Of a stretch of 64,000 nucleotides of DNA, positions 1 through 17,182 are shown in pieces. Location of the stretch: the NCBI GenBank assembly GCA_016169945.1, contig JADLSH010000257.1, positions 62,001 to 126,000 of the forward strand. Direction: 5' to 3'. The position numbers and the translations under genes are program-made. This DNA comes from Trachythela sp. YZ-2020 (lineage: Eukaryota; Cnidaria; Anthozoa; Malacalcyonacea; Clavulariidae). A model generated the notes under the pieces. The model had not been told where the DNA came from. It worked only from the letters and a program-made list of their open reading frames with translations, and searched no databases. Within the stretch, counting starts at the first letter, position 1, and each line of letters opens with the position of its first letter.

Positions 1-558
1 TGTGCGTTCTATTTTCACGTCATGCAGTATTCTCGAGTAAAATTAAGTCAACTCTGTTGTAAAAATGCAGTTTCTAATTGGGTCTTTATGATGTTGAAGG
101 TTACGTTTTGGTGGGCGTTTTAGGTAGAGAAGACTCTGAAAATGCCATTTCCGATGATCTACAGACTCAAGTTACATTAACTCGTAATACATGTTTTGAT
201 GTGGTCAAACAAATATTAAAAGTCGGTCCCTGAACAATGGACACCCCCCAAACTTTTTTGGAATGTGCGCCCCTGACTTCTCTATAATACTATAGCAATT
301 AAGAAGAATGTTGAATGATATTTATAAGACTTATAATGTTTCTATATACAACCGAGTCGTTCGTTTTCTAATGTGTCTGTCAATTTTCAATGGTAAACCT
401 CTACGATGCTAAACAGTTATTCTGTACAACTTGAGATGGCATATATATAAATAGTTAATTTTAAAGCTTCATTTTAAGATGGTGTCTCAATGTTACGTAG
501 TCGTAGTTGAAACAGTTTGCGCAGAATGTACAGTATTTTTCGTACGTGTAAAAATGTT
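1..558. other. Intergenic, 3' side of the GPCR gene
   Basis: No reading frame of note is seen. The DNA is A+T-rich and probably includes the 3' untranslated region of the minus-strand receptor gene that ends at 559. I cannot place a poly(A) signal with confidence. Confidence 0.5.
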
Positions 559-1842
559 TTAAAATGTACCCTTTACTCGATACCAGACTTTCCAATAAGC
601 CTTTCTATAGTCTGTGTTATATCCACCATAAACAAACACGTTCACAGCTGAATTTGCAGCAACCGTACTCAAAGCCAAAGTGATTACAGCTGGTGGAATC
701 TGGACACACGACTTACACCAGAGTTCTATTGCATCAATAATAGTTATAGGCAAACATAGCACTATAAAGAAGCCTATTATCGCCAACACTGTTCTAGTAG
801 CTTTTCTTGTCCGTGTTGTGCTTAACGGTACGTTTCTACTTTTAGAAGTTTGAGAAGTCACCATTTTCTTAACACCATTAGTTCGGCTGTCAGTATCATT
901 GTTATTAATAGAGGTGGCGCTTCTTTCTTCTGGATGTATTGCATGAACGTGATCAGTCCGTATAGTACTTAGCGAAACATGTCTATTGTTAGATTCTTGA
1001 GGACTAACTGATTTCTTTGCCTCGATTTGATCATCACTATTATTGTTATTATTGGTGTTTTCTCCCACGCTGCTTTCATCTGGTTGGATCGCGTTAACAT
1101 GAACAACCGAGGGATCACGAGGGACAGCCTCGCCGTGGGCTTCTGTGCCACTTTGTGGTTGCTCCCAAGCGTTAGTTTCGCTTGGCCTACGACAGTCGCA
1201 AGCCTGGTTGATAGCTGCGTGTCTAACAGCAATCTCTTGAGCGCGTATATGGCTGATCTGCCTGCGTGTCGAACGGAATACATATGTATGAGTAATCAAC
1301 ATTATCACCAAGGGTGTAAAATCCACTATGAACACATACATTATAAAATACTTTTCTGTAAGTGTAGTATTGTATCTACAAACAGTACCCACGTTTTCGG
1401 GGATTTCTCTTCGCCAACCAACCACAGGACAACCTGCCAGTACGAGACAACACAACCATGACAGAGCTATGACAATCTTACAACTAGAATTCTTCACGAC
1501 GTTTGCATATGCGAACGGTTTGGAGATCGCAAAGAAGCGATCCAACGCGATCAGCGCCAGATTCAAATTCGAAGCGCCGTGAAATAGAATGGCTAGCGCG
1601 ATGACCACATCACATCGGACTAAACTATGTTCACTAGTGTTCAGCACCTCAACTAAACGAAGTGGAAAATTTACAGCGCCTTGAAAGAAATCACTGACAG
1701 CTAGGTTGACGATTAGAAAATTTGCAGGAGTTTGAAGTCGACGGTTCGAGTAGACGGCCAAAATTACCAACATATTTCCAACAACGGTTACAACTGCTGT
1801 GAGTAGTCGCGTTACGACGAACAGTGTGTCTCCCAAGTCCAT
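559..1842 (-). CDS. Class A rhodopsin-like GPCR, intronless, 427 aa
   Basis: This is a seven-helix plasma-membrane receptor that would couple an unknown ligand to G proteins. The start is an ATG (CAT at 1840-1842) and the extracellular N-terminus is very short. TM1 has the GN pair (22-23) and TM2 has NLAVSD (46-51). TM3 ends in DRF (101-103) instead of DRY. C77 and C155 can form the usual TM3-ECL2 disulfide, and NTT at 158-160 is a glycosylation site. TM5 has the family proline. The third intracellular loop is unusually long, about 155 residues, and rich in Asn, Ser and Thr. TM6 has F359 and CLP (363-365). TM7 reads NVFVY (401-405) in place of NPxxY. Shape and motifs recall melatonin- and adenosine-type orphan receptors of cnidarians, but the ligand cannot be told. 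The frame is fully open, so it is probably functional. Confidence 0.88.
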   Translation of the reverse strand: MDLGDTLFVVTRLLTAVVTVVGNMLVILAVYSNRRLQTPANFLIVNLAVSDFFQGAVNFPLRLVEVLNTSEHSLVRCDVVIALAILFHGASNLNLALIALDRFFAISKPFAYANVVKNSSCKIVIALSWLCCLVLAGCPVVGWRREIPENVGTVCRYNTTLTEKYFIMYVFIVDFTPLVIMLITHTYVFRSTRRQISHIRAQEIAVRHAAINQACDCRRPSETNAWEQPQSGTEAHGEAVPRDPSVVHVNAIQPDESSVGENTNNNNNSDDQIEAKKSVSPQESNNRHVSLSTIRTDHVHAIHPEERSATSINNNDTDSRTNGVKKMVTSQTSKSRNVPLSTTRTRKATRTVLAIIGFFIVLCLPITIIDAIELWCKSCVQIPPAVITLALSTVAANSAVNVFVYGGYNTDYRKAYWKVWYRVKGTF

Positions 1843-1929
1843 TTTAATGCTTGAATCGGGTAATTTCCAATGCTATAACCACTGTATAGTTCAGGAATCG
1901 TCAAGATTATATAGACTAGCCAGCTGCTT

Positions 1930-2280
1930 TGGTATAAGATCACTTTCAGAATGCTAATGAGCACTTCAGAAAGTTGTGCTGTTGTGTCCACAAATATTCC
2001 TCTTACGAATTTTTTATCAAGAACTTATTTTAAGGATTGGATCCGCCAATATCACGTAAACACTGTAGCTACTTTGGTAACTTCACTCTCAGAATGCAAA
2101 TGAGCACTTCAGGTACAGTAAGTTGTGCCCACAGGGACAATTGTTCCTCTTACGAACTTCTAGATCTACAAAAAATCTGGGTTGAGCGATCACCAGTATA
2201 GCTTATAACCACTGTAGCTATACGTTGGTATAAGGTCACTTTCAGAATGCTAATGAGCACTTTGAGTGAGTTGTTTTGCA
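1930..2280. repeat. Three diverged direct repeats upstream of the GPCR
   Basis: The core TTCAGAATGCTAATGAGCAC recurs with changes starting near 1945, 2088 and 2241, a spacing of about 143 and 153 bp. The surrounding 'TGTAGCTA...GGTA' and 'CCTCTTACGAA' blocks also repeat. The array sits directly 5' of the minus-strand GPCR, so it could overlap its promoter. That role is inference only. Confidence 0.7.
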
Positions 2281-3725
2281 GCCTCTTTAACGGAAGGTAT
2301 TATATATTCTCAGAGAAGGTGTCAGAGAATTGCTTTAAGAAACACAGAAAATGCTCAAAGATGACATTCACATAAAGTTAATCCTTCCTATACCGAGTGT
2401 ATTTTCCACCCGCGATATTTCCGAAATTCTTTCAATTTGTGGATTCTTTTAACAACTTCGAAACAAATTTAACGTCTTAAACGAAGGTATTGTATATCTA
2501 TTCTTCTTCGGTCGCTTCGAATAGCACAGCAAATCAGCAAAATCAAAGATTCGCCGTCAATAGCATTTCTTCTTCTCCTGCACCTCAACTTGTGCCGACG
2601 AAATTCCTTCAAGTTGTCGATTCCTTTTTAAGACGGCCAAGCAGTTAGTCACGCGTGGTAGTTTGTCAAGTGCAAGGGCCAACACTAACGGAAAAGACAT
2701 AAAATTAGAAGTTTACTGATATAGGCATGTGTGCATGTGTTGCACAATATTAGACTTATACCAAATGTCTAATTAAGTCGAAGTACGTATTTAATATGCA
2801 GACAGAAATTAGCAAGATGGCGCAAGCTTAAACCACGGTTATTGCATCATTCATTCATTGATTCATTCGTTCGTTCAATATTCATTCCTTTATTCATTCA
2901 TTCACATAAAATAATATCATTCGCGAACCAAATTATCGTTCAAATTTAAAAGTAAACCCACCGTTAGAAAGCCAAATGGCTAAGCTTTAAAATTAATATA
3001 ATAATAAACGTTTTACCCTTTAATACTAGTATTCGTTTCGAGATTGTCATTCAACATCAAGGACTCACTTTTTTATACACTTATCGAAGTTTCTCTAGTC
3101 AAAGTATGATTTGATAAAAGTGTGTGACAATGTCACAATTTTACCTCAAAATTCTTCACTTCGAATTTTGACGACGCCATTGGCATTGTGATCATTGAAA
3201 CTTATATAGTGTAAATCAATCTTCAATAATGATTAATGGCATAATGATTTCAAATAGATCTAATCCTAAACATGCATCAAATATTATAATTATATAGGCA
3301 TGTTCCAGAAAATGATTTTTACAATTTTTGCTCAATATGCTTCGACATAAATCCATGCATTGCACAATATATAGATTGAAATATAATGAGATAATAACTT
3401 CTAGTAATGTACAATAGAATATAGATACAAAAATATACACACAATCTTGAATTATTTTGACATTCATTGGTTTGGAACAATGGTTGCATTTCACATCAAA
3501 TTCAATCCTTTGCTTGCTACATGCTGTCTATTTTATTACTCCATAACTTACTAATTTTCTGACTTCTCCAAAAATTGAAAAATAAAATTTCTGATAGAAA
3601 AGTCATAAAATAGCATTTTAATTTCATTTGGGAAAATATCAGATGGCTAAAATTTCTCATAATGACATCTCATGCAAACGTCGTAAAAATTCAAATTACC
3701 TCTTATCCAATATATCAAATATAAT
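2281..3725. other. Intergenic, A+T-rich
   Basis: No supported gene. An imperfect ATTC microsatellite lies at about 2847-2912. The short open frames here lack codon bias and family resemblance. Confidence 0.5.
2847..2912. repeat. Imperfect (ATTC)n microsatellite
   Basis: Runs of ATTCATTC, ATTCGTTCGTTC and ATTCATTCATTCAC are visible, interrupted by single-base changes. Confidence 0.8.
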
Positions 3726-4135
3726 GAATAGTAATATATTTTCACTGGTCGCCCCGCCACACAATGCCCTGAGCCGATTATAGCTAAGTATGGGGAGTAA
3801 AATTTTTCAGCCGAAGGCAAGACGTGGCGGAGCAACCGCCGTGTCGCAGCCGAGGGGAGGTGGGCGGTTGAAAAAATATTTTGCCAATCCCGCTGTCCAT
3901 GTGTGTCTTCGCGGCAAATGACAGAAAACTCACATTTCCCTGGGTTTTTATAACGTTGCTATTGCCACACGTGTTTCTATATCCATATTAATTAACTTCC
4001 GGCTGAAAAATCGCGCTCTTTAGGCATTGTATTGCATGACTCCCAGTAAGAATAGTAATATATTTTCACTGGTCGCCCCGCCACACAATGCCCTGAGCCG
4101 ATTATAGCTAAGTATGGGGAGTAAAATTTTTCAGC
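3726..4135. repeat. Direct repeat pair of about 85 bp
   Basis: The segment beginning GAATAGTAATATATTTTCAC and ending at TTTTTCAG occurs at about 3726-3811 and again at about 4050-4135, apparently identical. The second copy follows directly on the 175-bp repeat at 3881-4055, so the arrangement looks like a local tandem duplication. Confidence 0.85.
3881..4055. repeat. 175-bp direct repeat, copy 1 (copy 2 at 6011-6185)
   Basis: It starts TTGCCAATCCCGCTGTCCAT and ends near AAGAATAG. The copy at 6011-6185 differs at only about two positions (CGCGGC/CGTGGC and CCAGTAAG/CCAATAAG). The two lie about 2.1 kb apart in the same orientation and bracket the tandem-repeat block and a broken reading frame. 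They lack TG...CA ends, so I do not call them LTRs. Confidence 0.85.
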
Positions 4136-4299
4136 TCAGTCCCCCGTGACTACCGGCATGCTAAGGTCTCGCGTCCATATGAAGTACTTTAAAGGTTATA
4201 CAGATAAATAAGGACCATCTCTCCAATTCTCAGAAAACTAAGTTAAGGAAAAGCTAAGGAAAAGCCCTTATAATCAAGTTCGCTGCGCCTACAGTGAGT

Positions 4300-4950
4300 C
4301 CGTTAATACCCTCAAGCATGCCGCCTCATGTCCCAATGGAATATTATTATAAAGAATAAAAGCCACTGCTCCTAGCGAGTGCGTTTATACTTTCAAACGG
4401 CCTCATGCCCAAAGGCGTATTAAAATTTATACAGTTCACTACACCCACAGCGAGTTCTTTTATGTTCAACTGGCCTCATGCACCAAAGGCGTATTAAAGT
4501 TAATAAAGTTCACTGCGCCTCCAGCGAGTTCGTATATATTTCCAATTGGCCTCATGCACCACAGGCATATGGAGATTAATAAAGTTTTGCTGCACCAACA
4601 GCGAATTGGTTTATACTTTCAAATTCGGCAAACACCGCCTCATGCACCAAAGGCGTACTATACTTTGTAAAGTTAACTGCACGTGCAGCGAGTTCGTATA
4701 TATTTCCACATAGCCTCATGCACCAAAGGCATATTAAAATTAATATAGCTCACTGCACCTACAGTGAGTTCGTGCATATTTCCAGGTGACCTCATGCACC
4801 ATTGGCCTTGAAATCAATAAGATCCGCTGCCCCTAGAGCGAATTCGTTTATACTTAAGTTCAAGCACGCAGCCTCATGCACCAAAGGCGTATAATATCGT
4901 ATATTCATTTATACCTTCGACTCGAAACTACCTCGTGCACCAAAGTATAT
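4300..4950. repeat. Degenerate tandem array, unit about 76 bp, 9 copies
   Basis: CCTCATGCACCAAAGGCGTA-like cores occur at about 4324, 4401, 4474, 4550, 4638, 4714, 4790, 4872 and 4931. Each is linked to 'CACTGCGCCTACAGCGAGTT' and 'TATATTTCCA' blocks. Most spacings are 73-88 bp. No open frame runs through the array. Confidence 0.85.
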
Positions 4951-5285
4951 TCACTGGCTGTTTGTATAGCGTAGATGAATCGGAAAATTATGCCGGCACT
5001 AAAGCGCGAAAAATAAATATTAGTCATTAGACATACATCCCACTATTTATAAGTGACCGGCAGTATAAATATAATAAGAAAATAACTTAAGAAAAAGTAT
5101 GCTTGATGCCAGAGCGGCAAGTGGTGCCTCGTTAGGTCGCTTAAAGCTGTGCAAATTGATTAAGACAATTGGGTAGGTAAGTAACGAGAGTGAAAAAAAC
5201 CGTCGTGATGGCCTCTGTGATTGTGTGTAAAGGCCTGATGTTGACACAATATGTTGTGAATGTAAAGATATTAGAGAAGTGGTAC

Positions 5286-5555
5286 GCACACTAAACCATC
5301 CCACTACAAGTAACTGATAAACGAGAACGCCGTCGTAGACAGTGTATAAGGCGTACTAAGTTAGCCCCTCTCGAGAAACAGTACAAGCAGGCGATATATA
5401 TCGGCAAGTACGAATACTAGAGACTTGTTAAGCGCACTAAACCATCCCACTACAAGTAACTGACAAACGAGAACGCCGTCGAAGACAGTGTATAAGGCTT
5501 ACTAAGTTTGCCCCTCTCGAAAAACAGTACAAGCAGGCGATATCGGCAAGTACGA
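5286..5555. repeat. Tandem duplication, period about 146 bp
   Basis: The block from GCACACTAAACCATCCCACT to GGCGATATATATCGGCAAGTACG (5286-5411) recurs at 5432-5553 with few changes, for example a TATATA loss in copy 2. It lies inside the 4.1-6.0 kb interval bounded by the 175-bp repeats. Confidence 0.85.
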
Positions 5556-5748
5556 CAATTATAGATGAGGAAATGTGCTGCACGAAGAATCTTAAACAAT
5601 TATATGAAAACATAACGAGGTCGTCACGGAAGCAACCATGCGAAGACATATAATCAGATACGAGCAAATGTACTGCAAACCCAGCAAAAGGGCCCATGGC
5701 GTAAGCGTAGATGTATGGATGCATAAAAGGCTTTTAAGGTCGTCTCCG

Positions 5749-5955
5749 TAAGGCAAGAAAGAAACTAATCTGAGGCTGAGGCTCGACTAGTGGTTGTTGG
5801 GCGATCGCTGCATTTTGCAATCGCATCGGGCTTTGTTGTTCCACCGCAGCCGGTTGCGGTACATGTTGTTCCAGTTGCTGAGCATTATTTAGATCATCAA
5901 TCTCAAGCATTATTTAGATCATCAATCTCAATAGGTTGTGGTTGAACAGCTTCTG
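5749..5955 (-). pseudogene. Gln/Pro-rich reading frame broken by a 25-bp tandem duplication
   Basis: On the minus strand an ATG near 5955 opens a frame starting MAEAVQPQPIEIDDLNNA. It is thrown out of frame by an exact 25-bp tandem duplication (5881-5905 and 5906-5930). Ignoring one copy, the frame continues Gln/Pro-rich to a stop near 5749, about 66 codons in all. I do not recognise the product. Its position between the 175-bp repeats suggests an N-terminal or structural peptide of a mobile element, but that is inference. Confidence 0.35.
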
Positions 5956-6010
5956 CCATAACTCTTTTCGCTCGGCTGCGACACAGAAAATCTTGCTTGT
6001 AAAAAATCTG

Positions 6011-6185
6011 TTGCCAATCCCGCTGTCCATGTGTGTCTTCGTGGCAAATGACAGAAAACTCACATTTCCCTGGGTTTTTATAACGTTGCTATTGCCACAC
6101 GTGTTTCTATATCCATATTAATTAACTTCCGGCTGAAAAATCGCGCTCTTTAGGCATTGTATTGCATGACTCCCAATAAGAATAG
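6011..6185. repeat. 175-bp direct repeat, copy 2
   Basis: Near-identical partner of 3881-4055, followed by different sequence (AATAGTTTTATAAT). The stretch from 6186 to 6489 holds nothing I recognise. Confidence 0.85.
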
Positions 6186-7759
6186 TTTTATAATATGATA
6201 TCTCGGCTGTATATAGATATATGTATATTGCACAAGACGAAAATCTAAACATTATTCATTTTCAATGGCTAGGAAAACAATACTAATAATTTAAAAATCA
6301 AGAAAGATCCTTTAAGAATTTTAGGAATATTTATTTCAAAAAATTGGACTAAATGTGATTTGAAAACAACATGGGATATGTTTACACCTGCAAGTCAGCA
6401 TGTTATTGATTAGATGTCAAGCTATGAAACACAGTTGTAGTGACTATTGAGTATTGAACTAGCATATATGTTTTCGTTCAGGAAATATCGAAGACAGTAG
6501 TAATATACAGGCCGTTCGAGCCCCTTTTTTAGGGGGGCGCACTAATTAGTATGCAAGGCGGCTGCATTAACATAAACATAATTAATAATGTATTGACTCC
6601 TTCAATCTCGTATCTAGTGAAGTATTTCTTTCTGAGTCGACCAATACTAATAAGTTTTCAAGCGTTTATTTAGTAAAGCCTGTACAAGCGAGATTTACAA
6701 ACATTAAAGCGTTAGAAACATAAATATTTTGATTCTAAGTTAAACTAAAGACACAATAGCTTAACTCATTAAAAGATTAAGTCAAAAGACTTGTTTGGGC
6801 GAAACAATCATTAAACTGAACCATCACAATAGCTAGACCTTTCCTATATATTTTGCCAAGCGTTGTGTTCCAAACACAGTCCGTTTCGACAAAGAGTAAA
6901 TATATTCTCGTATCTAATATCACCTTAAACAAGACGGCTTAGACAACTAATATAGCGACGCTTAACCTAGTAAAATATTATGCGAAATAATAAGTAGAAA
7001 TATAGCGTTCTAAAACGAGAAAAGTCTTATAGTCTAAGAGAGGTCTAAGATCTTATAGAGCAATACAAATATATGTTAATTGCCAAGCGATTGTATAAAC
7101 ATAGTTCTTACAGGGATTTAAACCTTACAAAGTTTCAAGCGTTTTAGATGTAGCAGAGCGGGAAAAGCAGTAATTTTTAAGCGAGATTTACAAGCATACA
7201 CAAACATTGTATATAAACATTTAGCGTTTGTTAGGTAATTACGGGCAATTAAGATTTTCTAGCTTGAAAATTTGAATAAATTTAGAATATATTATTATAG
7301 CACGGGAAAATATTGTACAATGTACATACAATACACACAGAATTTGTTTTAAAACATATTTATTGCTTAAAATTTCTTTTACAGCGTTAGTAAGGTCTGC
7401 TCCTAAGAGCATATTGTTTAGGTGTCTTTTGTATCTTTATTTTTTTTGTCTATTTTGGGGGATAATCTTGCAATTGCTAAATCTTAAGGTCTCCAATCTG
7501 AAACGTCTACCCAATTAAATATATTTTTAACTAAGGTCTGCTCTGGGTCTGCTTCTAAGAACCTATTATTCTTAAACTCCATCACTCGCGTGGGAGTATA
7601 CATTGTCCGAATCAACCTCATAGCTTTTTCACCTTTTAACCATAAGGCATAACTTTACATTTATTTAACCCATACCGAGCAAGCATATCTCTGATATACT
7701 TGTTAACTAATCCAATTTCTATGAATTATGACTTATGACTTATGACTACGACTATGACT

Positions 7760-7925
7760 GAATCATTGAATCCTAAGATTGAATCATTGAATCCTAAGAT
7801 TGAATCATTGAATCCTAAGATTGAATCATTGAATCCTAAGAGTGAATCATTGAATCCTAAGATTGAATCATGGATCATTGAATCCTAAGATTGAATCATT
7901 GAATCAAGAGTGAATCATTGAAAGA
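7760..7925. repeat. 21-bp tandem repeat, left copy
   Basis: The unit TGAATCATTGAATCCTAAGA(T) repeats about seven times with small changes. Its inverted counterpart (AGGATTCAATGATTCAATCT units) lies at about 9228-9495 in the right half of the palindrome. The unit length is exactly three times the 7-bp satellite next to it. Confidence 0.9.
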
Positions 7926-7989
7926 TTGACATATCGATCGAGCTTATCTAATATCGAGCAGCTTAGCTCAAATCGAGCGAGCTTATGAG

Positions 7990-9160
7990 CGATGACTTAT
8001 GACTTATGACTTATAGGATTTATGACATGACTTATATGACTTATGACTTATGACTTATGATTTGCGATGACTTATGACTTATGACTTATGACTTTTGACA
8101 TGACTCATGACCGCGATTCATAAGTCGACGCGTCATGTCATAAGTCGCATGTCGCAAGTCGCGTCATGTCATGTCATGTCATAAGTCATAAGTCATAAGT
8201 CAGTCATTCAAGTCATAAGTCATAAGTCATAAGTCATAAGTCATAAGTCATAAGTCATAAGTCATAAGTCATAAGTCATAAGTCATAAGTCATAAGTCAT
8301 AAGTCATAAGTCATAAGTCATAAGTCATAAGTCATAAGTCATAAGTCATAAGTCATAAGTCATAGCGTCATAAGTCATAAGTCGTCATAAGTCATAAGTC
8401 ATAAGTCATGTCATAAGTCATAAGTCATAAGTCATGTCATAAGTCATACGTCATAGTCATAAGTCATAAGTCATAAGTCATAAGTCATAAGTCATAAGTC
8501 ATAAGTCATAAGTCATACGTCATAAGTCATAAGTCATAAGTCATAAGTCATAAGTCATAAGTCATAAGTCATAAGTCATAAGTCATAAGTCATAAGTCAT
8601 AAGTCATAAGTCATAAGTCATAAGTCATAAGTCGCGTCGCGTCGCGTCATAAGTCATGTCATAAGTCATGTCATAAGTCATAAGTCATAAGTCATAAGTC
8701 ATAAGTCATAAGTCATAAGTCATAAGTCATAAGTCATAAGTCATAAGTCATAAGTCATAAGTCATAAGTCATAAGTCATAAGTCATGTCGCAAGTCATAA
8801 GTCATAAGTCATAAGTCATAAGTCATAAGTCATAAGTCATAAGTCATAAGTCATAAGTCATAAGTCATAAGTCATAAGTCATGTCATAAGTCATAAGTCA
8901 TAAGTCATGTCATAAGTCATAAGTCATAAGTCATAAGTCATAAGTCATAAGTCATAAGTCATAAGTCATAAGTCATAAGTCATAAGTCATAAGTCATAAG
9001 TCATAAGTCATAAGTCATAAGTCATATGTCATATGTCATATGTCATATGTCATAAGTCATAAGTCATAAGTCATAAGTCATAAGTCATAAGTCATAGGTC
9101 ATAGGTCATAGGTCATAAGTCATAAGTCATAAGTCATAAGTCATAAGTCATAAGTCATTT
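7990..9160. repeat. Heptanucleotide satellite (AAGTCAT)n
   Basis: About 160 copies of a 7-bp unit fill the core of the palindrome. From 7990 to about 8105 the array reads (ATGACTT)n. Near 8110-8130 it flips to (AAGTCAT)n and stays in that orientation to 9160. Sporadic variants (CATGTC, CATACGTC, CATATGTC, CATAGGTC) occur in short runs, as expected for replication slippage. CRISPR is excluded because there are no spacers. Confidence 0.95.
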
Positions 9161-9225
9161 GGAGCTAAGCTCGCTCGATTTGGAGCTAAGCTGCTCGATA
9201 TGGAGCTAAGCTCGCTCGATATGTT
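9161..9225. repeat. GGAGCTAAGCTCGCTCGATT triplet repeat
   Basis: Three tandem copies of a 20-21 bp unit with internal dyad (GAGCTAAGCTC) stand between the 7-bp satellite and the right 21-bp array. The inverted counterpart is at about 7938-7990. Confidence 0.85.
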
Positions 9226-9227
9226 AG

Positions 9228-9495
9228 GATTCAATGATTCACTCTTTAGGATTCAATGATTCAATCTTAGGATTCAATGATTCAATCTTAGGATTCAATG
9301 ATCCATGATTCAATCTTAGGATTCAATGATTCACTCTTAGGATTCAATGATTCAATCTTAGGATTCAATGATCCATGATTCAATCTTAGGATTCAATGAT
9401 TCACTCTTAGGATTCAATGATTCAATCTTAGGATTCAATGATTCAATCTTAGGATTCAATGATTCAATCTTAGGATTCAATGATTCAATCTTAGT
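9228..9495. repeat. 21-bp tandem repeat, right copy (inverted)
   Basis: Inverted counterpart of the array at 7760-7925, with more copies (about 12). Some units carry a 7-bp 'ATCCATG' variant, which is also seen once in the left array near 7868. Confidence 0.9.
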
Positions 9496-10689
9496 CATAG
9501 TCGTAGTCATAAGTCATAAGTCATAATTCATAGAAATTGGATTGGTTAACAAGTATATCAGAGATATGCTTGCTCGGTATGGGTTAAATAAATGTAAAGT
9601 TATGCCTTATGGTTAAAAGGTGAAAAAGCTATGAGGTTGATTCGGACAATGTATACTCCCAAGCGAGTGATGGAGTTTAAGAATAATAGGTTCTTAGAAG
9701 CAGACCCAGAGCAGACCTTAGTTAAAAATATATTTAATTGGGTAGACGTTTCAGATTGGAGACCTTAAGATTTAGCAATTGCAAGATTATCCCCCAAAAT
9801 AGACAAAAAAAAATAAAGATACAAAAGACACCTAAACAATATGCTCTTAGGAGCAGACCTTACTAACGCTGTAAAAGAAATTTTAAGCAATAAATATGTT
9901 TTAAAACAAATTCTGTGTGTATTGTATGTACATTGTACAATATTTTCCCGTGCTATAATAATATATTCTAAATTTATTCAAATTTTCAAGCTGGAAAATC
10001 TTAATTGCCCGTAATTACCTAACAAACGCTAAATGTTTATATACAATGTTTGTGTATGCTTGTAAATCTCGCTTAAAAATTACTGCTTTTCCCGCTCTGC
10101 TACATCTAAAACGCTTGAAACTTTGTAAGGTTTAAATCCCTGTAAGAACTATGTTTATACAATCGCTTGGCAAACATATATTTGTATTGCTCTATAAGAT
10201 CTTAGACCTCTCTTAGACTATAAGACTTTTCTCGTTTTAGAACGCTATATTTCTACTTGTTATTATTTCGCATAATATTTTACTAGGTTAAGCGTCGCTA
10301 TATTAGTTGTCTAAGCCGTCTTGTTTAAGGTGATATTAGATACGAGAATATATTTACTCTTTGTCGAAACGGACTGTGTTTGGAACACAACGCTTGGCAA
10401 AATATATAGGAAAGGTCTAGCTATTGTGATGGTTCACTTTAATGATTGTTTCGCCCAAACAAGACTTTTGACTTAATCTTTTAATGAGTTAAGCTATTGT
10501 GTCTTTAGTTTAACTTAGCATCAAAATATTTATGTTTCTAACGCTTTAATGTTTGTAAATCTCGCTTGTACAGGCTTTACTAAATAAACGCTTGAAAACT
10601 TATTAGTATTGGTCGACTCAGAAAGAAATACTTCACTAGATACGAGATTGAAGGAGTCAATACATTATTAATTATGTTTATGTTAATGC

Positions 10690-10905
10690 TGAGTTGCGTT
10701 CGCGGCCCCCTGCGGCCCCCTATATGATAGTGTTTGCGGCCCCCTTGCATACTAATTAGTGTTGTTTGCGGCCCCCTGTATGCTAGTGTTTGCGGCCCCC
10801 TTGCATACTAATTAGTGCGCCCCCCTGCGCCCCCCTGTATGCTAGTGTTTGCAGCCGCCTTGCATACTAATTAGTGCGCCCCCCTGCGCCCCCCTAAAAA
10901 AGGGG
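10690..10905. repeat. GC-rich minisatellite at the right end of the palindrome
   Basis: About four units of GCGGCCCCCTTGCATACTAA and TTAGTG(C)GCCCCCCTGCGCC lie just inside the right terminus. The left terminus has a single unit (6531-6570). The expansion is therefore one-sided and younger than the palindrome. Confidence 0.85.
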
Positions 10906-10936
10906 CTCGAACGGCCTGTATATTACTACTGAAGAC

Positions 10937-11420
10937 TGCTCAAACCATAACTAGACAGGGCAAATATAGTATAGGTTGGCTTAACCACGTCCGTTTCACC
11001 CTTTATAGCGGGTGACCCACTGGAAATGTTTTCAAAATCATTACTATGAAAATAATATGGATCCTAGTTGGAAATAGTATAAAAATCCAATTTCCATACT
11101 ACATAACTGCAATTCCCATACTATGAATATACTCGTTTTTCTTTTGAATAATTAATGGTTTGTTCTATCACAATTTAATTGTATGAGCTGTTCTTCTTTT
11201 ACATTCATAATTATTTGATTTCTTTTTCTTTTATGAAATTCATATCTTCTTCGTGATTTTGGAAATAAATAAGTCTTTCAATACGTTGGACACATACGGC
11301 TAAAATATATAGGACCTTTTCCTAGGGCGATCATGCATGATCTCAGTATCATCCCCATGCTAGGTTTCATGAAGGAAATTCATTAGGAAATCCTATTCCT
11401 AGTATTCATCTTACACAGTC
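10937..11420. other. Intergenic
   Basis: A+T-rich unique-looking DNA between the palindromic element and a LINE fragment. No gene seen. Confidence 0.5.
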
Positions 11421-11429
11421 CCAAAGACG

Positions 11430-13360
11430 ACAATTTATCTCGTTCAAGTGGTACTTCGGAACTAATCTACTGGATTGTGTAAACGAATATACGTATTTAG
11501 GATTAACTTTTCATTATACTGGTAATTTTAAGATAGCGATAACAATGTTATACAGCAAGGCATTACGTGTTTACAATTGCCTAATGCACAAACTTTCAAA
11601 TGCAGAGAATATACCGATTAAAACTTTACTAAAACTATTTTCTTCAATGGTGGTTCCAGTTTTATTATATGGTTGTGAAATCTGGGGTGTAGGTTTATTA
11701 GGTAAAATCTCTTCGTTTGAACTCTTCAAAAGAGATTTCTCAATATGGTAAATAAACTGGAATCATTACAGTTGAAATTTTTTAAACGTATACTAGGAGT
11801 CCACTCTAAGAGTACAAACCTAGCAGTATATGATGAACTGGGTAAAGTTCCTATAATAGTACAGGTCTCTACTTTAGTGACAAAGTATTGGATACGAATT
11901 GAAACTCCGGATTATATGAACACTCTTGTAGGAGAGACAGCGAGTTTTAATATCCGATCAAATACTCAGGCTATTAAATTCACAAACTATGTTTTAAAAA
12001 TGTGTGATTTGGAATCACTAAACGGTATTTCTCTCCCACTTGAAAGTTTACATAATCTAGGTAAATATTAAAAAAATAGGTTATTTGCCTACTTCACTGA
12101 TTTCTGGAAAGATCAGATTGAACAAAGTCGTTACAGTGGTAAATTAAGAACCCTCGCACAAGTTAAGAATAAGGGGCTGATTACATGGACCGAGTTGTCC
12201 CGGCTAACCGAGTTGACCCGCTAAGGCGAGACGAGTTATAAATTGCAATTACATGAGCCGGGCTAGCTCGGCAAACCGGGCTGAAGTGAGCTCATTAAAT
12301 TGAAAATGTTCAACAATTAAATAAGTTTTGCTAGTTTTAGAAAGAAAATTGTTTACATACTGCAATTAAGGGCTTCTTCACGTATAGGCTGGAGTTAGAT
12401 GCTGTATTTACAATGAGAAATGCCCATAACATAGTTTTCTTCGGTTTTGTCTGGTAAAATGCAGTCGCTTCGCTCTTGAAAACTTTGAATCGCTTACTAA
12501 AGCACAAAAACATCATTTTGATACTAATTTGAGTTTCTTGTAACGTTATTTATCAATATTTTTAACAAAATGACCGCGCGTTGACCATATCTCAGCCCGG
12601 TTTGCCGAGTTGAAGCGATTACATGGCAATTTTCATCCCGCCTAAGCGAGTGACTCGGCAAGCCAAAGCGGGATCCCGGCTAGGCGGGACAACTCGCTAG
12701 CCATGTAATCGTAATGTCGAAATAATAGGGAATACATATACGAAGCGGGTCCACTCGGCAAAGCGAGCCAACTCGCTTAGCCGGGACAACTCGCCCATGT
12801 AATTAGGCCCTAAATTTGTATTTGAAAAATATCTCCATGAAGTATGTAATGTTAAACATCGTCAAGCAATAACAAAAATGAGAATATCCGCACACAAACT
12901 ACCGGTTGAATATGGCCGATATAATAAAACGCCATACGATGAAAGGATTTGTACTGTATGTCAATCGAATGAAATTGGAGATGAATTCCACTATTTAATG
13001 TCATGCTCCAATAAAAAAATTGCAGAAACTCGAAACACTTTTAAATAATTTGTATAGTATCAAGAGCTCTTTCCGCTTATTTGATACAAATAATTTGTTC
13101 TTATATATTTTAAATATTCACGATAAGTCCATTATGAAAATAATAGCAAAGTATTTCCATGATATTCTCCTGCTATATGATAAACAGTACATTGCGTAAA
13201 CATGCATATTAGTATGTATAATATAAAGAGTGTGATATTTTATAATCTTACAATATTTTATAGTTATTATAACGATACGTTTTGTATCTTCTTCATGTAA
13301 TTTCATATGTGCCTGTATTGGTATTTGATGAATAAAGATTATTATATTATTATTCTTACC
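11430..13360 (+). pseudogene. LINE (non-LTR retrotransposon) 3' fragment, RT C-terminus
   Basis: Only the end of a reverse-transcriptase polyprotein is present. It starts in the palm/thumb (EYTYLGLTFHYTGNFKIA), followed by LLYGCEIWG and FFKRILGVHSKSTNLAVY. It ends with a zinc-knuckle-like CTVCQSNEIGDEFHYLMSC motif (CX2CX9HX4C) near 12953. Damage: a frameshift near 11740, an in-frame TAA at 12069-12071, a 638-bp MITE at 12173-12810, and a frameshift in the A-run near 13015. The last stop is at 13197-13199. The 3' end is near 13355, with a degenerate ATT-rich tail. The C-terminal zinc motif is known from several non-LTR lineages, and I cannot fix the clade. Confidence 0.8.
12173..12810. mobile_element. 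PIF/Harbinger-type MITE, 638 bp, inside the LINE
   Basis: The ends are GGGGCTGATTACATGG and, reversed, GGGCCTAATTACATGG. The inverted similarity runs for about 50 bp (GAGTTGTCCCGGCTAA). The target duplication is TAA (12170-12172 and 12811-12813). A 3-bp TWA duplication with GGG-starting TIRs fits PIF/Harbinger. Removing the element plus one TAA rejoins the LINE frame through VKNKFVFEKYLHEV, which confirms the boundaries. Internal inverted copies of the subterminal GCTCGGCAAACCGGG motif are present. No coding capacity. Confidence 0.85.
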
Positions 13361-14095
13361 TTTTGAAATTATAATACAATAAAGAGCTTTGAAATCAGCA
13401 CACTGACTATAGTCTTCACTCAAACTGCCAAACCTCTGACTGAGGACCGTTATCTTCGCTGTCCTTATATCCCAAACGATTTACAACGGAAAACGTATTG
13501 CGAAATTTTGAGACGTTCTTGTACGTCTTGTCTCCGAGTGGCTAAATGTATAATTCAAAGTAGGCGCTCCCGCTGGGACGGAAATTGCAAGAAAAAGGCC
13601 GTCATGAGTCACTGGTTATAATTCTCTTTCATTAAAAGAGAAAAATGTTTTGTAGATTGCTCCTAGAAACTTGAAAACATCCTAATTTTGTTACCAGCTA
13701 CCAGGTGAGCATTTCGTGCTGTCAACTCGCAGCTGTTACCTCGTTTCTAAGGAGGGCTTCACAATGCGATAGGTTTTTAAGGAGTTCCATGTTGATAAGG
13801 CGTCATATCGGCTCGACAATTATCTTGATAAGTGCTCGCTCGAAACACGTCAACGTGTTGTCATGATTTCTTTCGCTTCACAATTTCCACTAACTTATTA
13901 AATAAACATATCCTACACAACGTATTTGTATTATTTCGTACTATCATCAACACCCGCGAAACGCACCTGCTTATGAAAGTGAGATAGTGCGAAAACCCGA
14001 ACTAAAACTTGGACTTACCGGCTCGGAATTATTACGAGATTGACCCAGATCTAGTCCTAGACTGACCAAGGGTCGCTTGCTCGGAGTTTTATCCT
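13361..14095. other. Intergenic
   Basis: No supported gene. Open frames on the minus strand near 13118-13423 overlap the LINE tail and look fortuitous. Confidence 0.45.
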
Positions 14096-14400
14096 CCTTC
14101 ATTTTCTGTCCCCTGCCATGTCCACCGTCAGTTCCCTGATATTTAGATTTTCATTTACACAGTCTATCCTCTCTTATTCGGTCTTCCCCGTCCTCTGTTC
14201 CCTTTTATCTTCAACATAATAATTTATCTGTAAGGCTCTCCTTCATTTCGTCTTATTACGTGTCCATACCATCTCAGCCTTCCTTCCCTCACCTTCTCTA
14301 CGATGTCTACCATCCCACCTCTTCTACTGATCTCTTCACTCCATAATGTCTCTGACTGGCTCTCCTTCATTTCTTCTTATTACGTGTCCATACCGTCGTC
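14096..14400 (-). pseudogene. LINE remnant (RTE/BovB-like C-terminal piece), minus strand
   Basis: The reverse strand encodes RLRWYGHVIRRNEGEPYR, then after one frame change GNRGRGRPNKR and a CVNENLNIRELTVDMAGDR-like stretch. This is the familiar 'RWYGHV...GRGRPxxRW' tail of RTE-like endonuclease/reverse-transcriptase elements. A second partial copy of the WYGHV...NEGEP segment at about 14338-14395 shows a small internal duplication. Heavily degraded. Confidence 0.6.
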
Positions 14401-15440
14401 CATAACTGTAGTCATGTTTATTCACTATAAGTTTAATTCACGGCCAAATTCGGATTCGACTCCAACTCCAGTTTGTGTTATCAGAGTTCAGATTTCACAG
14501 TAGGCCTCTAAAATTGTTAGTCCCAGCAGTGATGCGTCATTAGAGACCTTAAGATTGAGGTTTAAAATTTTTACTTCAAACCTCAAACTGCAGTTTGAGG
14601 TTAGACGTCTGAGGTAATAAATCTTGAGGAGATTAAGATTGAAGTACAAACTCTGAGATGTCTTTGAGTATAACTCTGCCATCTTGTCTTGAAAGCTGTG
14701 CTTTATAGTTTTTTCCAAGCTTAGTTTATTGTTATTTGTTTCAAAATAAGTGCAATATGAAGCTAAGATGATGTTTTAAACATTTATTCTAGTAAAACTA
14801 AAATATAGGTTGATATTTTCGAAAAATATCCTCAGGGATTATTCATACGCGAAAACAATTTCTACACGTTGAAAACCTGAACATTTACCGCAAATTCGAC
14901 CGCGGGAGTCTAGTCACGTGATCGCTAGCGGTTTGCGGTTTGAGGTATTCGTAAAAATACATCAATCTTAAGGTCTCGCAGCGAGCTTTGTCTTGAAAAC
15001 ATCATGCAGTAGCGGGAGTAATACTGTGTTTTTCGTTATCTCAATATAAACACAACTATAATTGTCACGAATGACCATATTTTGCCAAGGTTATTGTAAC
15101 ATCGTTCTCTGTCCGTTCGTTATATAAAATTTTCATCTTTCGGAAGCAATTCGCTAGCGTTGGCGACATTAACACGACAATATGTGAACCTGTATAAGCA
15201 ATAAATTCTGCTTAATAATACATTGGCGATCAATTTAGCGGAGACCAAGCAAGTTTGGGTTAAGATATTAAATGGAAAATACCCTAAAAATGTCAGTTTT
15301 CCCTAACCGGTTAATACAATAAGCTTCGGGTTTTGGGATCAATCTACCTGAAAAATACAACAAGAACTTCGACGTTTCGACCGAAGGGCCTTCGTCTGGA
15401 AGTTAGTAGTCTGGAAGTTAGTATTTTTGGTTAATACATC
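14401..15440. other. Intergenic
   Basis: No gene supported. A short perfect palindrome CAAACTGCAGTTTG lies near 14584, and several 'TTGAGGTTTAAA/TTTGAGGTTAGA' words recur at 14540-14640, suggesting a worn repeat. Confidence 0.4.
15365..15402 (-). ncRNA. Hammerhead-ribozyme-like core (degenerate)
   Basis: Read on the minus strand the segment is CCAGACGAAGGCCCTTCGGT followed by CGAAACGTCG. A type I hammerhead core is CUGANGA, then stem II, then GAAA. Here a GGCC...GGTC-like stem II and GAAA are present, but the first motif reads CAGACGA, with A in place of U. Closely related 'CTGACGAAGGCC...GGCCGAAACGTCG' repeats are known in Penelope-like retroelements of animals. I see a fossil of such a motif and do not claim activity. 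Confidence 0.25.
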
Positions 15441-15600
15441 AATCTGTCCAAATTCTTCAATGCGAATTTGGCGACTTTAGCTAGTTCACTGTACGATATG
15501 CTAAATGCGTTCGAGAAAGATGAATTGTATTCATTTGTTGTTTCTGAATTGAAAGGCACCTTCAAGAAATTTAAGACGAGTTTTAGCGACATGTTTGGAT
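15441..15600 (+). other. Short open coding-like segment of unknown origin
   Basis: A frame without a clear start encodes a Lys/Phe/Leu-rich stretch (SLYDMLNAFEKDELYSF ... FKTSFSDMFG). It is cut at 15600 by the hAT MITE. Beyond that element the frame runs on into the LINE fragment. I do not recognise it; it may be an exon relic or chance. Confidence 0.2.
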
Positions 15601-15889
15601 CAGTGGTGGATCCAGCCTACATTTTTTACGGGGGTGCAGCCGAGCAAGGGAGCATACCGAGCCCTGCACTGACAAGCAGTGTGCCGCCACGCCAGTAGGA
15701 AAATTTGTAAATATGGGTATTTTGAACTAGTGCTGCCTTGAATGAAAAAAATTAAGTTGGTCTAAGACCAGTAACAAATTTTGAATACTTCAAACGTTTT
15801 AAAAGTATAAAATTTTTTTGCACCCCCTTGCACCCGTAAGGTCAACAGGGGGGCACACCCCTGTGCACCCCCCTATAAATCGACCACTA
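15601..15889. mobile_element. hAT-type MITE, 289 bp
   Basis: Left end CAGTGGTGGATCCAG, right end CGACCACTA (reverse TAGTGGTCG), with an exact 8-bp duplication GTTTGGAT at 15593-15600 and 15890-15897. A CAGTGG-type TIR plus 8-bp duplication is characteristic of hAT. Non-coding, with C/G-rich runs near the right end. Confidence 0.82.
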
Positions 15890-15904
15890 GTTTGGATGTG
15901 ATCA

Positions 15905-16567
15905 ATTTCATGCTCGAAAATTGAATTTTAACATAATCTTATTACAACCGCTTAATGACCGAGTTAAAGTAACTAAATCACTTGGCGTAAAGATGGACGA
16001 AACTTTGTCATGGAATGCCCAAGTGAACCAAGTTACTAAAAAGGTCAATGCAGGCCTCAGCATCCTAAGACGGGTTCGAGAAATAGTGGATTATAGAACA
16101 CTAATTACAATATATCAATCAATTATTCAACCTCACTTTGATTACTGCTCGCAAGTATGGGGTTGTCTAGGAAAAGGTTTATCAGACAAATTACAGAAGC
16201 TCCAAAATCGAGTATTTCGAATAATAACACGTGAAAACTACGAGATTCGATCTGTTGACATTTTGGAAAACGTAGGAGTTTCTAACTTACAAACCAGAAG
16301 AGAGCATCAATTAGCGATTCTAATGTACAAAGTCAAAAAAAAATGCTACCAAATGATTTAACTGAAATTTTCACCAACACGAATTCAATACATGATCATA
16401 ATACGAGAAATAGCGAATTTAATTTCGCATTACCTAAGCCAAAAACAAATAATATGAAAAAGGCTTTTGCCTACAGGGGGGATGAGGCTTGGAATAACCT
16501 TTCCACTGCAATAAAATCATCGAAAAGCATCTCTAGCTTTAAAACCAAAATAAAGCGAATATACTAA
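15905..16567 (+). pseudogene. CR1/L2-like LINE, 3' fragment of RT
   Basis: The fragment encodes the connection and thumb after the RT palm: VTKSLGVKMDETLSWNAQV, IIQPHFDYCSQVWG, LQKLQNRVFRIIT. After a frameshift in the A-run near 16340 it continues HDHNTRNSEFNFALPKPKTN and AFAYRGDEAWNNLS. This order is the standard end of CR1/L2-type ORF2. The 3' UTR follows to a tail of AATAAAGTCAATAAAGTCAA at about 16738-16758. 5' truncated, hence dead on arrival. Confidence 0.85.
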
Positions 16568-16727
16568 TACTGGAAATTCATTTTCAGTCACCTAATCTTT
16601 TGTAGACCATTGATATTTTATATAATATATTTGTAGTGCATGCACACAGCCTATTGGAAGATCACCTTTTTCTTTTTCTTTTTTTTTTTTAATTAACATC
16701 ATTGTAAATAATTAATCAGGTGAAATA

Positions 16728-16758
16728 GTACCGTTTTTAATAAAGTCAATAAAGTCAA
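16728..16758 (+). repeat. LINE 3' tail (AATAAAGTC)n
   Basis: About two tandem copies of the AATAAAGTC word end the CR1/L2-like fragment, consistent with CR1-clade elements ending in short microsatellite tails. Confidence 0.6.
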
Positions 16759-17182
16759 TGTCAGACTGGTGACTGCGAGACAGCGGTTAGAAATCATTGT
16801 AATATAAAATACACCGAAAAATCAAGAAAGACGCAATATAGAAATCCCATGATATAATGGCTTATACAGTAATATACAAAATCAATATAAGATCTTGCAT
16901 ATTTAAATGAATTAGGTATTAATTATATAACCGTTGCTTGTTGCATTGACCCATAGGGGAAATAAATGTATCGACTCAAAGTGAACACTCGCAGTAATGA
17001 TATAGTACGGAACATCAGAGACGGTTGACCCTCTAGCCCGTTAGTGCAAATGCTATTAGTTTGATTACAAAAACTTCTTAATCTCGACAGAGCAGTGCAA
17101 ATGTCATTTGCTGAATACCACAGCAAAAGAAACTTTGTGGAACGGGTTCATGCGACAGAAGATAAATTGTTGTCCCGTCACG

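Follow-up and report, generated by a model that had tools for sequence, protein, structure and literature searches.

A palindromic non-autonomous Polinton derivative in the genome of the anthozoan Trachythela, probably born by snap-back replication of one element end

Polintons (Mavericks) are presumed to replicate by means of a protein-primed polymerase, their copying in animals has mostly been deduced from gene content, and non-autonomous Polintons are catalogued in Repbase. We describe here a palindromic insertion at positions 6490-10936 of a 64,000-nucleotide stretch of DNA (the window; contig JADLSH010000257.1, positions 62,001-126,000) from the genome assembly GCA_016169945.1 (578 Mb, 396 contigs) of Trachythela sp. 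YZ-2020, together with the family of elements to which it belongs. In vertebrate Mavericks, as described in PMC8097293, the commonest end motif is (AGT)2//(ACT)2, the target duplications are of 6 bp, and the terminal inverted repeats (TIRs) measure 46-1447 bp. The element in the window resembles Polintons in its (AGT)2//(ACT)2 ends, its 6-bp duplication and its long TIRs, and in having a same-ended relative that codes for an integrase, an ATPase, and protease-like and polymerase-like proteins. It differs from them in being 4.4 kb long and geneless, with TIRs extended into a palindrome that is built of one end around satellites. We consider it probable that this element is an inverted duplicate of the right-hand end of a Polinton derivative that carried genes, born by snap-back replication.

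Adeno-associated virus (AAV), which replicates in a rolling-hairpin mode without protein priming, provides one comparison. Snapback short genomes of this linear DNA virus originate either from its 5′ side or from its 3′ side (PMC8235507); those are described there as virion genomes, whereas palindromes of the window type are chromosomal insertions. A closer precedent is a 20-kb insert upstream of gh1 in Chinook salmon, which contains a 10-kb palindrome belonging to a Polinton-1 (PMC2584663). This is a brief single report whose account of the insert includes no family or mechanism, whereas here there is a multi-copy family with folds from opposite ends. It was also the one precedent met in our literature search, in which none of the listed entries described a Polinton family of palindromic or foldback form (few subscription journals were covered, and neither preprints nor Repbase). 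Very long TIRs with tandem repeats are shared with Galileo (PMC3573991) and Tetris (PMC4079207), extended TIRs being a feature of the former and growth of satellites from the element a feature of the latter; by the descriptions given there, Galileo belongs to the P superfamily and neither it nor Tetris is a Polinton-type insertion.

The window element is a single discrete insertion of 4.4 kb. Comparison of its flanks placed the target-site duplication GAAGAC at 6490-6495 and 10931-10936 (features are on the forward strand unless marked otherwise), and its termini are AGTAGTAATATACAGGCC and GGCCTGTATATTACTACT, that is AGTAGT...ACTACT, the right end being the complement of the left. A perfect 47-bp terminal inverted repeat (100% identity) occupies 6495-6541 and, on the reverse strand, 10885-10931, its first base lying within the target duplication. 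By arm alignment, the left arm of the palindrome extends over 6496-7922 and comprises the terminal repeat, a mirrored ATPase remnant and a 21-bp array, and the right arm extends over 9322-10930 (reverse strand). Arm 6564-7922 is 98.47% identical to arm 9322-10689 over 1371 columns, and the outer kilobase of the two arms is 99.61% identical over 1015 ungapped columns (~0.4% difference). The original prediction for this locus, made from the letters of the sequence, had reported the exact 6-bp repeat GAAGAC with AG/CT termini and arms of more than 1.2 kb at ~98-99% identity, all of which we could reproduce. Its term near-perfect palindrome describes the arms well but not the core, in which the central 436-bp piece is only 70.5% identical to its own complement. 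A series of 59-bp tandem units (10702-10895), located by a repeat scan and by alignment with a second allele on contig C262, is an expansion confined to the right end.

Autonomous Polintons are of ~12-25 kb and have their own genes; the window element falls outside this description, having a length of 4.4 kb and no stop-to-stop frame of at least 110 amino acids. The earlier statement that it contains no coding frame holds at that length, but each arm retains the decayed C-terminal part of an A32-type ATPase gene of Polintons. The remnants were identified by tblastn with the ATPase of a relative on contig C150, at 7390-7561 in the left arm (reverse strand; E 5e-5 against that arm alone) and at 9691-9863 in the right arm (E 3e-9 against that arm alone, 2.8e-7 when searched among all loci). 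They are ~50% identical to the C150 ATPase and both are frameshifted, the left one also having one stop within the aligned piece.

The C150 copy (L020) allowed the source of the arms to be traced. It is 6063 bp long and has TIRs of 1224 bp at 98.5% identity, between which lie, in order, the RGYG gene (- strand), the KDLQ gene (- strand), a 21-bp minisatellite and the ATPase gene (+ strand; PF04665, 2.4e-6), RGYG and KDLQ being working labels taken from residues. The window arms cross the boundary of the right C150 TIR at 4840, continuing to 4747 in the right arm and to 4788 in the left arm, and their matches to the left side of C150 end at 1220. The array at window 9160-9223 has the same 21-bp unit as the minisatellite beside the C150 ATPase gene, in an identical orientation relative to the gene. 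Since right-side-only C150 DNA and an ATPase remnant occur in both arms, both arms correspond to the right-hand end of an element of the C150 type. The original prediction of a TIR-only derivative mobilized in trans is accordingly in need of revision: the arms exceed the TIR and are one end in inverted duplicate, although mobilization in trans, to judge from the sequence features, is probable. C150 itself is a Polinton derivative that retains a packaging-type ATPase and two further frames, and many of the 97 ATPase rows listed (92 of 2716 candidates scored) have no internal stop, which suggests that selection may act on a non-autonomous element.

Both ends of the window element thus derive from one parental end, as would be expected of a snapback molecule, and a copy on contig C37 represents the opposite case. 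The C37 copy (7372 bp, target-site duplication CAGATG) is 97.3% identical to its own complement from end to end and consists of C150 positions 218-3872 followed by the complement of ~3938 back to 219; that is, the left end is mirrored, folding within the ATPase gene around a loop of ~66 nt. At its extreme ends the C37 copy differs from C150 in terminal type. Three more fold points were read from the centers of the respective copies alone. At 409 kb on C117 (409950-410680), C150 positions 2350-2782 come first, then 26 unmatched bases, then the complement of 2552-2268; on C385, a truncated KDLQ gene is followed by minisatellite and then by that gene's start on the opposite strand; and on C195 a minisatellite is joined to ATPase base 388, and on the other side lies a second ATPase of opposite orientation. 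The copies on C19, C351, C179, and C323 are 92-95% identical to their own complements from end to end.

Gene order around other copies was surveyed by means of the ATPase rows and a KDLQ listing (150 of 165 matches; 150 of 759 candidates scored), the resulting pair counts being lower bounds. A divergent KDLQ neighbor within 5 kb was found for 65 of the 97 ATPase rows listed, and two neighboring pairs are in another order. Inverted pairs of the same gene within 10 kb number at least two for ATPase and at least four for KDLQ, with the C-termini outward in all six. On C221 there are two outward ATPases with a single KDLQ between them, i.e., in the loop.

A family search with the first 211 bases of the element (40 of 934 candidates scored) gave 57 matches on 20 contigs, which correspond to 19 independent loci and the C262 allele, a mirrored pair on C235 being counted as one locus. 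The exact terminal motif AGTAGTAATATANNGGCC occurs in 486 copies genome-wide (239 + 247), and the reversed motif used as a control in none. Among the 100 motif places listed there are 26 facing neighbors; 20 of these are separated by 2.8-9.6 kb and none by 10-20 kb, so that short derivatives dominate in this sample. In all ten independent insertions whose two ends were placed by the terminal motif alone, the flanks are identical at exactly 6 bp, and a flank match at 4, 5, 7, 8, or 9 bp was seen in none of the ten. The evidence is weaker for seven further loci (C351, C179, C323, C37, C171, C138, and C101), for which one or both ends were sought by requiring AG...CT, a 6-bp repeat and ends that resemble each other; six of these matched at 23-24 of the 24 terminal bases and C101 at only 14, and at C171 a single right end could be paired with either of two left ends. 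An AG...CT pair with a 6-bp repeat was not found at C198 and C316. Overall, the 6-bp duplication, which the original prediction had proposed to check in other insertions, is present at 17 of the 19 independent loci. We rejected a reading of the window ends as CAGT...ACTG with a 4-bp duplication AAGA, because a 6-bp duplication in the AGT register is the reading common to the independent insertions. The C101 copy (309099-315352, L031) has two unlike termini, AGTAGTAATATA... and AGTAGTAGTAGA..., within one AACGTA duplication, and one of its ends seems to have been replaced.

The assignment to Polintons is based on a coding relative on contig C283 (~4341652-4355787, 14.1 kb), which has the same AGTAGT...ACTACT ends as the window element, in agreement with the Polinton-like ends originally proposed, and a GTTATC duplication. 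It was the one coding element with these ends that was checked for an integrase. Pfam matches were obtained to the integrase (rve, PF00665, 5.7e-15; chromodomain, 4.5e-13), to a GRF zinc finger (3.1e-8) and, just above the Pfam cut-off, to an A32-type ATPase (6e-5); a match to adenovirus protease (adenain) was weak and below the cut-off (0.0072). The polymerase region of C283 is broken into several frames. One open reading frame (ORF) in this region has 1461 homologs, with PF03175 in 11 of the 120 listed, and the named close relatives among those 120 are from the sea anemones Actinostola and Actinia and the brittle star Amphiura. Relative to the window arm, C283 matches at 86-95% over its right 565 bp and over only ~50 bp at its left end. 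When C150 was searched by tblastn, neither the integrase nor the polymerase pieces of C283 gave a hit. Viral contigs contained no exact copy of the terminal motif and no confirmed relative of the integrase. The ends, the 6-bp duplication and the coding relative support the classification of the window element as a non-autonomous Polinton derivative.

In the process that we consider probable, the growing strand would fold back or switch template during copying of the element's linear DNA, and the folded strand would then copy itself outward again, leaving the same end at both termini. The palindromic molecule would retain two ends, and with them the cis requirements of replication and integration, and could be copied by the polymerase and inserted, with a 6-bp duplication, by the integrase of coding relatives. 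Intergenic satellites of the parent would land at the axis and alter in length there, and the arms would afterwards diverge as ordinary chromosomal DNA. We infer the replication step from what is directly visible, namely the 6-bp duplications, the insertion of palindromes, the one-end arms and several fold points that derive from one end or the other. For human inverted duplications, PMC3907307 describes a fold-back model in which a spacer present in single copy is flanked by short inverted sequences. As to the wider reading, that the family is a fossil series of snap-back Polinton genomes, born recurrently from either end, integrated and multiplied in trans, we judge the case for and against to be evenly balanced.

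Several points weigh against snap-back replication, or limit its reach. Template switching is inferred from structure and not from any replication intermediate, and the fold point of the window element is unreadable as a junction, being inside satellite. Of the coding relative that had been foreseen by the original prediction, the rve integrase was found in C283, but its right-side polymerase-like ORFs gave no polymerase match in Pfam. By eye, the C37 junction has one extra base and no clear microhomology, and the C195 junction has a 4-nt GATT match. Several copies (e.g., C351, C179, and C323) have a similar asymmetric axis sequence, also by eye, and given such shared axis sequences some palindromes were probably multiplied ready-made. 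Lastly, among the 13 insertions in which arm could be compared with arm (the other loci being without a second arm of sufficient length), arms are nearest to their own partner in seven and not in six, C37 belonging to the seven by 0.001 points only. The idea that arms are re-made at every jump is therefore not supported.

The best surviving alternative, which we nevertheless regard as unlikely, is chromosomal extension of the TIRs by gene conversion or break repair, one end of an integrated element being copied over the other so that the TIRs become ever longer, as in copies of cut-and-paste elements such as Galileo, where extended TIRs are described as recruiting internal sequence (PMC3573991). 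The mirrored DNA on C235, which extends for at least 15.8 kb in each arm and includes a nested family copy, could be the product of a chromosomal process of this kind. The C262 allele speaks to conversion directly. It has the same insertion with the same target duplication; its aligned flank blocks are 97.8-99.7% alike, and of the four C262 pieces compared, three (L038, L009, and L039) together cover window 1-16759 except for some gaps. In the outer 1.26 kb, differences between the left and right arms are common to both contigs, and three single-column differences are each private to one arm of one allele; in the 21-bp arrays further in, the window left arm alone differs from the other three arms. 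As the alleles share arm-specific differences, no conversion is visible since their separation, and gene conversion between the arms after insertion finds no support in this copy. Moreover, the palindromes are bounded by their own 6-bp duplications and so moved as palindromes, and the location of the C37 fold within a gene, with its loop of ~66 nt, is the expectation for fold-back.

The allele also bears on the age of the insertion. Two flanking blocks are 99.59% and 99.66% identical between the window and C262, and because the divergence of the outer arms resembles this between-contig difference, the window insertion looks young. Of the recent birth or gene conversion originally offered to explain the similarity of the arms, only the former is in keeping with these data; on the alignments, the arms appear to have been nearly identical at insertion and to have drifted later without visible conversion. 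The fourth C262 piece, further right, has no match, and the end of the C262 matching at 16759 may be either a large insertion or the edge of a duplicated block.

We consider it quite improbable that the window element is an ordinary deletion-derived non-autonomous Polinton whose long TIRs pre-existed and whose middle was lost. Such derivatives do arise in the family, as C212 is one, and C150 already has TIRs of 1224 bp; deletion, though, leaves unexplained the right-side-only DNA past the TIR on both sides of the window element, the ATPase end included, and the end-to-end alignment of C19, C351, C179, C323, and C37 with their own complements. An assembly artefact is less probable still. Palindromes and satellites misassemble easily, and the window and C262 differ within the core, but the two contigs concur on the arms, flanks, duplication and arm-specific variants, and similar structures occur at other loci, each with its own duplication. 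A simple assembly-made inversion is unlikely because C262 repeats the insertion, the duplication, the flanks and the outer-arm differences. Least credible of all is a foldback transposon of another superfamily that merely resembles a Polinton, for although the accounts of Tetris and Galileo (PMC4079207, PMC3573991) include satellite formation and long TIRs containing tandem repeats among the traits of foldback elements, the 6-bp duplication, the (AGT)2 ends and the same-ended relative coding for Polinton-type proteins are against it. The rve integrase of C283 speaks against a Galileo-like P-type element, for which a P-superfamily transposase would be expected, and the ends and duplication of the window element do not agree with the TGT ends and 4-bp duplication described for Ginger transposons (PMC2836005).

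If the window element and its relatives did originate by snap-back replication, they would be the counterpart of the defective snapback genomes of DNA viruses, and the series would be indirect evidence for a linear extrachromosomal replicating form of Polintons in animals. The palindromes may also be parasites or dampers of the coding elements. Fold points that lie within a gene, and that are seen from either end of a single parental type, constitute a readable record of template switching, which makes the question of how animal Polintons replicate a testable one.

The core of the window element consists of short tandem arrays in mirrored succession, their units being 7, 19-21, and 21 bp long, and is not the single 7-bp satellite first described, although such an array does occupy 8178-9158. 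From left to right, repeat scans identified a 21-bp minisatellite (7752-7922), the 7-bp satellite ATGACTT in left-hand orientation (7992-8111, 16.7 copies), the 7-bp satellite GTCATAA in right-hand orientation (8178-9158, 141.7 copies) and two 21-bp minisatellites, TGGAGCTAAGCTCGCTCGATA (9160-9223), recognized by its unit and orientation as that of the array beside the C150 ATPase gene, and TTAGGATTCAATGATTCAATC on the right side (9224-9494). The axis of the palindrome was taken as the strand switch of the 7-bp unit (8112-8177, no strand assigned; repeat scan and axis comparison), and it is off the geometric center because the right-hand 7-bp array is much longer. In C262 the main 7-bp array has 293.6 copies, compared to the 141.7 of the window. 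At the axis itself (window 8112-8177, L009 3690-3790) the alleles differ in both sequence and array length, that of C262 having perfect 104-bp arms and a 25-nt spacer. The satellite core is not special to the window copy, as other copies hold similar mirrored arrays, and one of its units, as noted above, also adjoins the ATPase gene of C150. This suggests a possible origin for some short satellites, in which intergenic repeats of Polintons are moved to a palindrome axis and change in length.

The C235 region (203725-242999; L041, L016, L017, and L042) has a ~6-kb center with Polinton genes, integrase-like and others, and the mirrored DNA on its two sides is 96.8-99.6% alike in long blocks. By eye, these mirrored arms contain reverse-transcriptase-looking frames, and the family copy present in both has an identical 6-bp duplication. 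We considered C235 as a clean full-length parent of the family and dropped it, as the mirrored DNA reaches the edge of the sequence compared.

At the left junction of the window element (6488-6498), the 11-mer TCGAAGACAGT recurs at 5479, within a 146-bp tandem repeat in the flank (5268-5543), possibly by chance. Scans of the window found no Rfam match at gathering thresholds and no tRNA. Elsewhere in the window, a frame at 22322-23962 matches RVT_1 (7.8e-30) and one at 24371-25183 matches zf-RVT (2.2e-8), both probably remnants of LINE elements, and an open frame on the reverse strand at 559-1872 encodes a rhodopsin-type GPCR (7tm_1, 2e-41).

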